Shown piece after piece: positions 5,149 through 51,978 of a DNA stretch of 64,000 bases (its first letter is position 1; every line of letters begins with the position of its first letter). A model generated the notes under the pieces. The model saw nothing but the letters and a program-made list of their open reading frames with translations, was not told the origin of the DNA and did not search any database. The position numbers and the translations under genes are program-made. The stretch lies in the NCBI RefSeq assembly GCF_000733725.1, contig NZ_JMQM01000001.1, positions 868,001 to 932,000 of the forward strand, read 5' to 3'. This DNA is from Nitratireductor basaltis. Lineage in GTDB: Bacteria > Pseudomonadota > Alphaproteobacteria > Rhizobiales > Rhizobiaceae.

Positions 5149-6303
5149 ATGGACCATCTTGCGCGCGCCAAGGGGATACTGGGCGAACTCATCGCCTTTC
5201 CGACGGTCTCGGCGGACAGCAATCTGCAGCTGATTGCCTATGCGTCCGAGTTGTTGTCCCATGTTGGTGCGCGCATCTCCGTGATGCGTGACGAGACCGG
5301 CACCAAGGCCAATCTCTTCGCCACACTGGGGCCTGAAGGTGACGGTGGAGTCGTTCTATCGGGCCATTCGGATGTCGTGCCGGTGGATGGGCAGAACTGG
5401 ACCTCAGATCCCTTCGCCATGCGCGAAGAGGGTGGCCTGCTTTACGGTCGCGGTACCTGTGACATGAAGGGCTTCATCGCCTGTTGTCTCGCCATGGCAC
5501 CCGAATTTGCCGCGATGGAGCTGAAGCGTCCGCTGCATTTTGCCTTCACCTATGATGAGGAGGTGGGCTGCATGGGCGCGCGTTCGCTCGTGGAAGAGTT
5601 GAAGCGCATGGAATTGCGACCGTCTGCTGCAATTATCGGCGAGCCGACATCCATGCGCATCATCGAGGGTCACAAGGGCTGCTTCGAATACACGACCGAG
5701 TTCACGGGCCTTGCCGGCCATGCTTCGCGGCCGGAGCTTGGGGTCAATGCGATCGAATACGCCATGCGCTATATCAACCGGCTCATGGCGCTGTCGGAAG
5801 AATTGAAGGAGCGCGCACCTTCAAACCGGTTCTCCCCGCCCTGGACCACACTACAGGTCGGGCGCGTGGAAGGAGGTGCGGCGCGCAATGTCATCGCTTC
5901 CCATGCGCGTGTCGAATGGGAAATGCGCCCCGTCGTCGATGCAGATGCTTCTTTCGTGAAGGAGAATATCACGTCCTATGTCGATGAGGTGCTGCGGCCG
6001 GCCATGCAGGCAATTCATGCAGAGGCGGATATCGTCACGCATGTCATAGGCGAGGTTGAAGGGCTGGAGCCGGTGGAGGAATCCGAGGCCCGGCGTATCG
6101 TTTCCGAACTCACGGGTCTGACCGAGGCGGAAGTGGTGGCTTTCGGAACGGAAGCAGGGCTTTTCCAGACCGCAGGCATGTCGGCGGTGATCTGCGGGCC
6201 AGGCTCCATCGACCAGGCGCACAAGCCCGACGAGTTCATCTCGCTTGCGCAGATGGACGCCTGTCTGGGGATGCTGGAACGGTTGGGAGCGCGGCTCTCG
6301 TGA
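5149..6303 (+). CDS. M20-family deacetylase (ArgE-like), probable N-acetyl-diaminobutyrate deacetylase
   Basis: 384 residues of the ArgE/DapE/CPG2 M20 metallopeptidase family. Metal-ligand motifs seen are SGHSDVVP (His), GRGTCDMKG (Asp), TYDEEVGCMGA (catalytic and bridging Glu), IIGEPT, and QAHKPDEF (terminal His). The dimerisation lid lies between about residues 185 and 290. It begins seven bases after doeA and its stop overlaps the GTG of the GntR gene. In described ectoine pathways this step is done by DoeB/EutE, of the unrelated AspA/AstE family; an M20 enzyme at this position is inferred to be a non-homologous replacement. A role in arginine synthesis cannot be excluded from sequence but the context argues against it. 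Confidence 0.82.
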   Translation: MDHLARAKGILGELIAFPTVSADSNLQLIAYASELLSHVGARISVMRDETGTKANLFATLGPEGDGGVVLSGHSDVVPVDGQNWTSDPFAMREEGGLLYGRGTCDMKGFIACCLAMAPEFAAMELKRPLHFAFTYDEEVGCMGARSLVEELKRMELRPSAAIIGEPTSMRIIEGHKGCFEYTTEFTGLAGHASRPELGVNAIEYAMRYINRLMALSEELKERAPSNRFSPPWTTLQVGRVEGGAARNVIASHARVEWEMRPVVDADASFVKENITSYVDEVLRPAMQAIHAEADIVTHVIGEVEGLEPVEESEARRIVSELTGLTEAEVVAFGTEAGLFQTAGMSAVICGPGSIDQAHKPDEFISLAQMDACLGMLERLGARLS

Positions 6304-7016
6304 CGCAGGAACCCGGTACCAGTGAAGCTCGCGCCCGCTATGACAGGATCTACGCGACATTGCGCAAGCGCATATGCCTGCTCGACTACCCGCCTGGGCG
6401 GCGTTTGCGCGAAGAGGATCTGGCCGAGGAATTTCACGTCAGCCGCACGCCCATTCGCCGCGTGCTGGCACGGCTCGAGGATGAGGGGCTTGTGCAATCG
6501 GTTCATGGTGTCGGCACCATCGTCACCGACTTCGACATCGAGAGCCTGAGCGAAGTGTACCGCCTGCGCATCGAGCTTGCCGAATTGACGGGCAAACTGT
6601 CACCTGTTGCGCCTGACGAGGCGCTCATCCGGGAACTGGCGGAACTTGAGGGGCGGGCTCAGGACCTTCTGCGACTGCCCGACGCGCGGGAGTTCGCGCG
6701 TCTCAACATGGAATTCTTTCATCTCCTTCAGTCGCTGACTTCCAATGAGCCTCTGCGCCAGGTCAGCGAACGCCTCTATTTTCAGACCACTCGTATCTGG
6801 TTGAAAACGGCCTCTCGCCTTGGTCACTATCGCAATGTCCTTCGCGAGGAGGTGGATGCCTTCATCCGCGAGATGCGCGACGTTTCACTCGCATTGGAAA
6901 GCGGTGATCTGGCCGCGGTCGGCCACATCCGTCGCGCGCATATCTCGATGAGCTATTCACGCCTGCTGGCCAAGGCGCAGTCCTCGGCAGCACCTCCGGC
7001 AGCCAATAGTATTTGA
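6300..7016 (+). CDS. GntR-family regulator with FCD domain
   Basis: 238 residues. An N-terminal winged HTH (about residues 15-80: LREEDLAEEFHVSRTPIRRVL, then VHGVGTIV) is followed by an all-helical FCD effector domain (about 85-225). Start is GTG 6300, overlapping the TGA of the preceding gene (GTGA), indicating translational coupling. Family knowledge: FCD proteins usually repress and are released by small carboxylate ligands. Two TTGTATACA sites in the divergent control region are the obvious targets. Described ectoine loci are commonly controlled by EnuR, a MocR-type GntR with an aminotransferase domain; this protein lacks that domain and is much shorter. Confidence 0.85.
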   Translation: MTQEPGTSEARARYDRIYATLRKRICLLDYPPGRRLREEDLAEEFHVSRTPIRRVLARLEDEGLVQSVHGVGTIVTDFDIESLSEVYRLRIELAELTGKLSPVAPDEALIRELAELEGRAQDLLRLPDAREFARLNMEFFHLLQSLTSNEPLRQVSERLYFQTTRIWLKTASRLGHYRNVLREEVDAFIREMRDVSLALESGDLAAVGHIRRAHISMSYSRLLAKAQSSAAPPAANSI

Positions 7017-7039
7017 GCAGGCTTGGTTTCTTGCGTGAT

Positions 7040-7056
7040 TGCTGAAAAAATCAGCA
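7040..7056. promoter_or_regulatory. Inverted repeat TGCTGA-N5-TCAGCA upstream of sigma54 promoter
   Basis: TGCTGA (7040-7045), five A bases, TCAGCA (7051-7056), 24 bases after the GntR stop. There is no T-run, so it is a poor terminator. Its half-site resembles the palindrome at 7103-7117, and both lie 50-110 bases ahead of the sigma54-type promoter, the usual place for enhancer-binding-protein sites. Function inferred. Confidence 0.35.
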
Positions 7057-7102
7057 GAAGATAGTGCATGGCGCATAAATGTGCATCAATATCGCGGTGT
7101 GG

Positions 7103-7117
7103 TGCTGCAGTGCAGCA
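7103..7117. promoter_or_regulatory. Perfect palindrome TGCTGCA-G-TGCAGCA, candidate enhancer site
   Basis: A 15-base perfect palindrome (TGCTGCAGTGCAGCA) centred 43 bases upstream of the GG of the -24 element at 7153-7154. Spacing and symmetry fit a binding site for a sigma54 activator. It shares TGCTG...CAGCA halves with the repeat at 7040-7056. The protein that binds it is unknown. Confidence 0.4.
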
Positions 7118-7150
7118 GCCGAAACGCAGGAAAGTTCAGCAGTTTCGAGT

Positions 7151-7167
7151 TTGGCACGCTTCCTGCA
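7151..7167 (+). promoter_or_regulatory. Sigma54 (-24/-12) promoter
   Basis: TTGGCACGCTTCCTGCA matches the RpoN consensus TGGCACG-N4-TTGC(A/T) at all but one position. The invariant GG (7153-7154) and GC (7165-7166) are separated by exactly ten bases, as required. Predicted start of transcription is about 7177-7179. No coding start follows before the terminator at 7235-7274. Confidence 0.65.
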
Positions 7168-7177
7168 TGGTTATTGG

Positions 7178-7274
7178 CGAGGGTCCAGAGGGGACAACTC
7201 GAAGCGCCGGAAACAAGGCGCGATTGACCGCAAACAGGCTGCCGGAACCTCCTCCCTCCGGCAGCCTGTTTTTT
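7178..7274 (+). ncRNA. Candidate sigma54-dependent small RNA, about 97 nt
   Basis: The interval runs from the predicted start of the -24/-12 promoter to the U-run of a strong intrinsic terminator (stem 7235-7246/7257-7268). It holds no ORF with a ribosome site. The 57 bases ahead of the stem are GC-mixed and largely unpaired, available for base-pairing. I recognise no known RNA family. Promoter and terminator are seen; that the product is a stable regulatory RNA is inferred. Confidence 0.45.
7235..7274 (+). terminator. Strong intrinsic terminator, partly bidirectional
   Basis: Arms CAGGCTGCCGGA and TCCGGCAGCCTG (12 perfect pairs) with a ten-base loop, followed by six T. On the other strand it begins five bases after the stop of the nuclease gene and ends in TTTG, so it may serve both directions, but the T-run favours the plus strand. 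Confidence 0.75.
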
Positions 7275-7831
7275 CAGCTGCACCATGATTGCTTGTGGCC
7301 CCGCCATTTGTGGGCAAGGCCCTCGGCGACCAGATAATCGCCGACGGATCGACCCTTGTGAGTGATTTTCCTCAGCTTGCGGCCATAGACGTCCCTGTCC
7401 CGTCCGACACCGCTCTGCAGCTTTATCGGTCCCTGATTCATCAACTCCTGCAGCCGCTTTTGCGCGCGCGCGGCCAGTTCCGCCTCTCTCCTGCATTGGG
7501 GGCTGAAAAGCTCGGGAGTATTGATGTCGGAAAGCCTGATCTTGTCTCCACGCACATATACCGTATCGCCGTCCACGATACAGTTGACCCGCGGGCCGTG
7601 GCCGCAGATCCCGAAACGGGCATGGGTGGTATCTTCGGGCGTTGGTGCATAGGCGAGGAACGGCACGAAACGTGCGAGCTCGCCTGGCACGGAAAGATAG
7701 TAACCTGCGGCGAAGGCCATGCATGCGGCAAGCACGGCAAGGCCATAGAAGTCCTTCAGAATGCGCAATATGCCACTCTGGCTGCGCTTTCTATACCGAC
7801 CTGCTTCTGGTTGGCGACCACGGCCCATCAA
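7274..7831 (-). CDS. Membrane-anchored thermonuclease (SNase)-like protein
   Basis: 185 residues. A basic N-terminus is followed by one hydrophobic segment (about residues 27-46, FYGLAVLAACMAFAAGYYL), then a staphylococcal-nuclease-like OB fold (about 80-175) with CIVDGDTVYVRGDKIRL and DINTPE. The segment VGRDRDVYGRKLRKI keeps the family's Arg and Tyr positions. The fold would face the periplasm. Short SNase-domain proteins of this type are common in Rhizobiales without a settled role, and many are not proven nucleases. The gene stands alone, divergent from the cytochrome c gene; its stop codon abuts the terminator hairpin. Confidence 0.8.
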   Translation of the reverse strand: MMGRGRQPEAGRYRKRSQSGILRILKDFYGLAVLAACMAFAAGYYLSVPGELARFVPFLAYAPTPEDTTHARFGICGHGPRVNCIVDGDTVYVRGDKIRLSDINTPELFSPQCRREAELAARAQKRLQELMNQGPIKLQSGVGRDRDVYGRKLRKITHKGRSVGDYLVAEGLAHKWRGHKQSWCS

Positions 7832-8007
7832 CTCGCCCCTCCTTCACGAGGGGATGATGAGGCAGACCTTTTTCTGTTTGGTTCAGGAAACACGTGGAAT
7901 TTTAACGACGCGGTCGGGCAGGGATAACCTCGTTACGCTTGTTCATTGGACGCGCTTCACCAGAGCGCCTAGAGTTTGGTGGCAATGCTGTTTGGGAGGC
8001 AGCTTCC

Positions 8008-8382
8008 ATGATCAAGATCTATATTTCGGCCATACTCATCGTCTTTGGCGGCGTGGCAGCCTGGGCGGATGCCCACAAATCCGCTGATGATGACACCGAG
8101 ACCTTTGAACTGTCGCTGAATGCGGAGGATGTGGATCTGGAGGCGGCGGAGGCGATCTTCAAGAAGAGCTGCCGCGCCTGCCACGGGAACAAGGCGCAGG
8201 GCGTCGCCAGCTATCCGAAGCTGACCGACAAGGAGCCCGAGCATATTGCCGACAGGCTCGTCACCTATCGTGCGCGGGAGCGGGTTGGCCCGAACTCCGC
8301 GCTCATGTTCCAGCCAGCGAAGAAGCTGAGCAACGAAGATATTGCCGGTCTCGCGGTCTATGTAACGAGCGCTTTCGACTGA
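8008..8382 (+). CDS. Periplasmic monohaem cytochrome c
   Basis: 124 residues from ATG 8008 (GGGAGG eight bases upstream). A signal peptide (MIKIYISAILIVFGGVAAWADA) is followed by a class I cytochrome c domain. The haem site CRACH is near residue 56, and a Met in ALMFQPA is the probable sixth ligand. It is 143 bases ahead of a quinoprotein sugar dehydrogenase on the same strand, which suggests it accepts electrons from that enzyme, an inference from position. An acidic stretch (SADDDTETFELSLNAEDVD) between signal and haem domain is unusual. Confidence 0.87.
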   Translation: MIKIYISAILIVFGGVAAWADAHKSADDDTETFELSLNAEDVDLEAAEAIFKKSCRACHGNKAQGVASYPKLTDKEPEHIADRLVTYRARERVGPNSALMFQPAKKLSNEDIAGLAVYVTSAFD

Positions 8383-8525
8383 TCGCTACAAGTGCATGAT
8401 CGGCGATGGCCGAACTGACTCGCTAGATTTTCCGGATGGGACTACACTGATGCCGGGCTTCGGTGCGGCAACGAACGTGAGTTCAAGAGCCCGGTCACGT
8501 TTGGAAAAATCCAAGGGAGGATAAC

Positions 8526-51781: not shown

Positions 51782-51901
51782 CGTTTCAGGGGCAGGTGAG
51801 GGCGTTTGCGTACTTATTTGCGTGTAACATGGCTCGTGCCCTTGAAAGGCATGTTCATGTGCAGCAAATATCTGCATGTCACCCGGGCCGGGCCCCTCTG
51901 G

Positions 51902-51919
51902 CAGGCAAGGCGTTGCCTG
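51902..51919 (+). promoter_or_regulatory. Hairpin in the leader of terC
   Basis: CAGGCAA and TTGCCTG pair around GGCG, 60 bases ahead of the terC start, preceded by a GC-rich block CCCGGGCCGGGCCCC. TerC/Alx genes often have a Mn2+-sensing yybP-ykoY riboswitch. I could not find its conserved core here, so the element is unnamed. Confidence 0.3.
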
Positions 51920-51978
51920 TGATGTCGGACCGATCGACAACGCGCCAACGCAGCGCATTGTTTTTCTGATCCAAACCC

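Follow-up and report, generated by a model that had tools for sequence, protein, structure and literature searches.

A predicted, conserved small-RNA unit of the NtrC/σ54 type in Nitratireductor basaltis and other Rhizobiaceae

Within a 64,000-nucleotide stretch of the Nitratireductor basaltis genome (hereafter the window; C1:868001-932000, the genome totalling 3.55 Mb on 5 contigs), we identified a short intergenic unit that is probably a stand-alone small-RNA gene controlled by NtrC and σ54, belonging to a family outside Rfam and probably silencing mRNAs through the loop of its own terminator. That this unit represents a conserved small-RNA arrangement of the NtrC/σ54 type, as predicted from the DNA and its relatives, is well supported.

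The features of the unit and of the genes on either side are collected in Table 1. In the σ54 core TTGGCACGCTTCCTGCA, 10 bases separate GG (7153-7154) from GC (7165-7166), and the 5' end near 7178 was placed at the usual distance from the GC of the -12 element. The terminator stem comprises 12 GC-rich pairs, or 15 when the flanking A-U pairs are included (7232-7246 with 7257-7271); it encloses the loop ACCTCCTCCC (7247-7256), and the six T occupy 7269-7274. The 97-nt stretch 7178-7274 folds with a predicted energy of -49.2 kcal/mol (z -5.18), and none of 200 shuffled sequences folded equally well. No plus-strand ORF of at least 20 aa was found to start within 7168-7274. The core with its GG-N10-GC geometry, the 12-pair terminator followed by six T and the lack of a gene start between them had all been put forward in a preliminary description of this DNA, and each of them holds; the coordinate at which that description began, 7040, coincides with the NtrC-like palindrome. 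The terminator at 7232-7274 does not appear in the list produced by a generic terminator scan of the window, presumably because that scan permits only loops of 3-8. In the interval from the NtrC-like site to the promoter there is a further palindrome, TGCTGCAGTGCAGCA (7103-7117), which may be a site for a second regulator.

Table 1. Predicted elements of the small-RNA unit and adjoining genes, in window coordinates
Feature	Position	Strand	Basis and remarks
NtrC-like enhancer site TGCTGAAAAAATCAGCA	7040..7056	.	TGC-N11-GCA; palindrome perfect (6+6); σ54 core lies 111 bases downstream
σ54 (-24/-12) promoter core TTGGCACGCTTCCTGCA	7151..7167	+	Sequence; aligns with promoters of homologues
Predicted small RNA, ~97 nt	7178..7274	+	Fold, R3 match, no internal ORF start
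Hairpin 1 GUCC-AGAGG-GGAC, Shine-Dalgarno-like loop	7183..7195	+	Outer stem CGAG/CUCG at 7178-7201
Hairpin 2 GCGCC-GGAAACAA-GGCGC	7204..7221	+	Stem covaries in relatives; loop without the ANTAR A1/G4 pattern
Intrinsic terminator, 15-pair stem + T6	7232..7274	+	Fold; same position in relatives
Terminator loop ACCUCCUCCC, anti-Shine-Dalgarno seed as in ar14/NfeR1	7247..7256	+	Predicted fully unpaired
Upstream gene, GntR/FCD regulator of ectoine-type cluster	6300..7016	+	Pfam; context only, outside the unit
Downstream convergent gene, staphylococcal-nuclease-like	7274..7831	-	Pfam SNase; context only

The promoter contains a GG-N10-GC core with TGGCAY and TGCW elements, and the palindrome at 7040-7056 provides a candidate upstream enhancer site. 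GG-N10-GC occurs 980 times on the two strands of the window and TGGCAY-N6-TGCW twice, against 1.1 expected; the σ54 motif alone therefore proves nothing, and it is conservation that lifts the unit above chance. TGC-N11-GCA is the rhizobial NtrC motif according to the relevant passages of PMC10746234. Among the 41 occurrences of this motif in the 64 kb, two are perfect palindromes, one of them being 7040-7056. Upstream of homologues, TGC-N11-GCA was present at 66-160 bases in 28 of 91 cases, compared with a mean of 7.65 and a maximum of 17 in 200 shuffles. When other spacings from 0 to 19 were tested, those of 3, 0 and 1 bases were next highest (19, 17 and 16 of the 91), from which it follows that short palindromes, too, are raised upstream of the homologues; the presence of the strict NtrC-like pattern in only 28 of the 91 also counts against NtrC control. 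Both ntrC and rpoN are encoded in the genome.

The distribution of the unit was determined with an exact pattern combining the σ54 core and GTCCAGAGGGGAC. The pattern occurred in 103 of 394 Rhizobiaceae genomes, a count that includes nas leaders and one genome with a non-canonical promoter (G525), and a reversed control pattern gave none among the matches listed for these family genomes. In an evenly drawn sample of 397 genomes of the order, the pattern was present in 8, our own included, and the reversed control matched once (G137). Named genomes yielded at least 119 matching stretches, including those of Agrobacterium, Rhizobium, Ensifer, Shinella and Neorhizobium, together with some from other phyla that are evidently due to chance. 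The 165 matches listed comprised 152 distinct ones, from which the 140 with a canonical promoter were kept; exact duplicates are thereby removed, close relatives are still represented, and the total number of copies is at least 140. The 12 excluded matches look like chance, 11 of them coming from named records outside Rhizobiaceae and one from G136, while two of the kept copies come from metagenome-assembled genomes labelled Arenimonas (L072) and Bradyrhizobium (L031) that are possibly misbinned. A DNA search of 61 genomes gave matches in 7, our own included, and those in the other genomes span the promoter and hairpin 1. An extra match in one genus relative (G003, locus L008) covers the promoter only; there a near-identical σ54 core, GTTTGGCACGCTTCCTGCATGG, stands without hairpin 1 upstream of the gene for a putative ABC-type substrate-binding protein. 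Two copies of the unit, L052 and G626:C16:224406-224447, lie in a single genome that has no ANTAR match among the matches listed and a listed contamination of 9%.

Covariance models gave a consistent picture. A model built from 49 relatives with the window left out (R3) recovered the window at 7152-7260 with 58.5 bits and an approximate E-value of 4e-12, the second-best match within the window scoring 7.6 bits. A second model, which includes the window (R2), scored it at 62 bits and reached an E-value of 0.01 or better in 202 of 394 genomes, a number that takes in nas-leader relatives and some weak matches. The four elements that characterize this Rhizobiaceae σ54 hairpin RNA family, namely the promoter, a 5' hairpin with an [AG]GAGG loop, a second stem and a terminator, are all present in the window, and no Rfam family reached its threshold at the unit in a scan of 16 loci. 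In 135 of the 140 canonical copies a distance of 12-15 nt separates the core from hairpin 1, and with a spacing so constant the RNA is expected to begin at or beside hairpin 1.

Promoter and stems are kept in relatives, with compensatory changes of the kind that the preliminary description had proposed as a check. For hairpin 2, a set of 50 sequences chosen by promoter and hairpin 1 contained 25 double-change cells, against 10.6 after shuffling, and none of 500 shuffles reached 25. When both hairpins were considered in 41 model hits, which include nas leaders and of which 40 were collected without requiring the 13-mer of hairpin 1, 39 double changes were counted against 8.8 in shuffles, the alignment being fitted to the model. 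Hairpin 1 covaries in these hits (GC to AU, UA to CG and GC), and in those not chosen by the 13-mer its loop sequence remains constant while the stem varies; a regular expression recognizes AGAGG or GGAGG in 25 of the 41, one of which, L244, is by eye a GAGA tetraloop. Of the 94 non-redundant non-nas copies, 82 are followed by a strong hairpin with a T run, and when each copy was shuffled once this was so in 1 of 94; this stricter count is used instead of a looser one, whose 87 of 94 against 54 for upstream stretches is uninformative. A hidden small ORF served by the Shine-Dalgarno-like loop was considered and rejected: a start codon lies within 15 nt in 30 of the 94 copies, and shuffled sequences gave a mean of 25.3 with a range of 16-35.

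Another reading is that the window holds a non-functional relic or composite, in which a fragment of an old σ54 leader lies by chance next to a terminator that belongs to the convergent nuclease gene. We regard this as unlikely. The stop codon of the nuclease gene does touch the T run of the terminator, the loop of hairpin 2 in the window deviates from the consensus, and the locus is not shared in the genus: no close homologue of the nuclease was found in 15 other genus genomes, 13 of which have a distant match (best E-value 2.6e-14), and with homologues so distant the locus could not be traced across the genus by synteny. Nevertheless, no part of the unit is damaged, from the enhancer site and promoter core to the hairpins and terminator, and the spacing between them is correct; read on the nuclease strand, the hairpin has no more than three T after it.

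The genes upstream of the unit encode, by Pfam, AsnC, ornithine cyclodeaminase-like, PALP, M24, M20 and GntR proteins, a set that we take to be an ectoine catabolic cluster. The preliminary description had envisaged a σ54-controlled small RNA beside an ectoine locus; the first part withstands that description's demand for a promoter and stem conserved in relatives, but the link to ectoine finds no support, as homologues among the 140 canonical copies adjoin mrp, marR, nas and other genes, and the ectoine neighbourhood looks incidental. Specifically, mrp follows 100 copies, 6 of which come immediately after nasS; a marR-like gene follows 16, which have terC upstream; 11 copies are leaders of nas genes; and of the remaining 13, one is that of the window and 12 are found elsewhere. 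L039 and L047, classed as 'other' by the script, were reassigned to nas from their downstream proteins. A terC RNA (RF03067) occurs in the window at 51880-51937 with 63.3 bits, and three Agrobacterium-type loci likewise have an RF03067 RNA, placed upstream of the terC gene next to the small-RNA unit.

Such neighbourhoods could suggest a cis-acting attenuator or leader of the downstream gene, since in the 100 mrp-type copies mrp lies downstream in the same orientation, and leaders of nas genes act as attenuators in related bacteria, as described in the pertinent part of PMC6759348. We assign this reading little probability: the next gene in the window is convergent, and the unit stays constant while its neighbours differ. 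Convergent genes also seem, by eye, to face L044, L104, L129, L131, L134, L150 and L168. Several of the copies found elsewhere apparently have a convergent gene downstream, judged by eye from the longest ORFs, so at those loci the unit would work, if at all, as its own transcript.

Because nas leaders in this genus and family have the promoter and hairpin 1 in common with the unit, it was considered initially that the unit is a stray nas leader which binds the ANTAR protein NasT, as a target or decoy. In a related bacterium, leaders bearing such hairpins are targets of NasT, according to the corresponding section of PMC6759348, and ANTAR targets are paired hairpins whose hexaloops carry A1 and G4, in the account given in part of PMC3369931. 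Both NasT and NasS are encoded in the present genome, some mrp-type copies adjoin nasS as mentioned above, and a strong ANTAR protein (PF03861, E-value under 1e-16) is found in 86 of 102 unit-bearing genomes compared with 127 of 292 others, kinship being ignored; this comparison covers 102 of the 103 unit genomes, G525 being excluded for its non-canonical promoter. What decides the matter is the double hexaloop, recognized by regular expressions in 11 of 11 nas leaders and in 0 of 129 other copies, including the window, where neither hexaloop was found; the initial idea was discarded on this ground, and a NasT decoy is thus unlikely. Single ANTAR loops do occur, the first in 1 of 12 'other' copies and the second in 3 of 100 mrp copies. 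In nas leaders the loops sit in hairpin 2 and the next mini-hairpin, whereas hairpin 1 has no ANTAR loop, and 16 of the 41 model hits carry a different loop there yet have at least one ANTAR hexaloop. Moreover, 16 of the 102 unit-bearing genomes have no strong ANTAR match, 10 of those having none at all.

Compared with the NasT-controlled nas leaders, the window RNA has in common the σ54 promoter, the 5' hairpin (identical in several genera), the second stem and the terminator, but it lacks both the ANTAR double hexaloop and downstream nas genes. EutX and Rli55 are sponge RNAs of ANTAR proteins; like them, the window RNA would be a stand-alone RNA related to the leader of an ANTAR regulon, but the ANTAR loops are missing from it. 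The nas leader of the genome itself (L010 8932-9030, minus strand) is divergent, scores 21.7 bits with R2 and has no AGAGG hairpin, and an AGAGG hairpin is present in the nas leaders of the genus relatives G001, G003, G005, G007, G008 and G010.

For a stand-alone small RNA that would silence mRNAs, a close comparison is offered by the terminator loop. According to the passages of PMC10746234 on these RNAs, ar14 RNAs carry CCUCCUCCC in each of three hairpins, and NfeR1, which is transcribed from a σ70 promoter and repressed by NtrC, silences ntrB through its CCUCCUCCC seeds. The window RNA resembles ar14/NfeR1 (RF02344) in having a terminator hairpin with a ACCUCCUCCC loop, a length in the region of 100-120 nt, no ORF and the same host group; it differs in having one seed rather than three (the single such loop being 7247-7256), a σ54 core instead of a σ70 promoter, and another 5' half. 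The Rfam model of ar14 scores 30.6 bits on the window, below its gathering threshold of 58.8, and it is apparently the terminator hairpin that accounts for most of this match. A σ70 consensus scan of 6000-8500 gave one site, at 7311-7338, downstream of the unit. A true ar14 is located elsewhere in the genome (C1:952059-952179, 95.4 bits), and a second ar14-like candidate (L276, G000 C1:2150230-2150333, minus strand) scores a sub-threshold 36.9 bits and shows two CCUCC-rich hairpins by eye. The 10-mer ACCTCCTCCC has 6 sites in the genome, two in the true ar14 and one in the window loop, compared with 15 for the reversed 10-mer.

In the wider family the seed is rare. Of the 94 non-redundant non-nas copies, 7 have CCTCC somewhere within the 127 nt that follow hairpin 1, and only 2, those of the window (ACCUCCUCCC) and L103 (CCUCCC, terminator loop), have it in a predicted apical loop, so that the silencing seed is not a shared function of the family. 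The seed of the window would be either a rare lineage-specific gain or a coincidence; we favour a gain, because the loop is predicted to be fully unpaired and ar14 has exactly the same seed over all 10 nt. With an ar14-type seed in the terminator loop, blocking of ribosome binding sites would be the likeliest mechanism in this genome. As a target, ntrB was considered and rejected: the putative ntrB ORF, between a dusB-like ORF and ntrC, has no matching Shine-Dalgarno sequence before its candidate starts.

The sequence of events we propose would start with nitrogen limitation, under which phosphorylated NtrC, bound to the palindrome at 7040-7056, would activate RpoN polymerase at 7151-7167. The transcript would then run from near 7178 to 7274, and its terminator-loop seed would block ribosome binding sites on the target mRNAs in the manner of NfeR1. 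What the sequences show directly is the architecture, its conservation and covariation, the promoter and enhancer motifs and the presence of ntrC and rpoN; that the unit is transcribed, is controlled by NtrC, has targets and silences them through the loop is what we infer. More tentatively, and with somewhat less confidence than doubt, we suggest a Rhizobiaceae family missing from Rfam that is activated by NtrC and σ54 and recognized by way of its near-invariant Shine-Dalgarno-like 5' loop, with the ar14 anti-Shine-Dalgarno terminator acquired in this lineage, which would make the window RNA a nitrogen-starvation-activated counterpart of the NtrC-repressed NfeR1. It is very unlikely that the [A/G]GAGG loop instead serves as a sponge titrating anti-Shine-Dalgarno RNAs such as ar14: its sequence is constant while the stem varies and ar14 is present in the genome, yet the commoner loop AGAGG gives, by inspection, only four pairs to CCUC, and the window RNA itself bears the opposite seed.

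Qrr and GlmY are σ54-dependent small RNAs, and the predicted unit resembles them in being a short terminated RNA with a -24/-12 promoter and a distant enhancer; the likeness is one of arrangement, and a different activator is presumed for the window RNA. Literature searches with the 13-mer and close forms returned unrelated papers only, and those on NtrC- or RpoN-dependent small RNAs and on mrp or terC neighbours gave no description of the window RNA among the results listed. Nor does one appear in the portions of PMC3616915, PMC4842269, PMC5082802 and PMC3738593 covered by the search; a supplementary table such as the RpoN transcription-start list of PMC3616915 may hold an unnamed entry.

If they are real, NtrC-activated small RNAs of this kind would add an RNA branch to the way in which rhizobia and agrobacteria respond to nitrogen stress. 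The presence of the unit in about one quarter of the sampled family genomes, beside mrp, marR or nas, offers targets for bench work in well-studied genera. Finally, the promoter and 5' hairpin common to nas leaders and stand-alone RNAs suggest a route by which leaders and small RNAs may be converted into one another.
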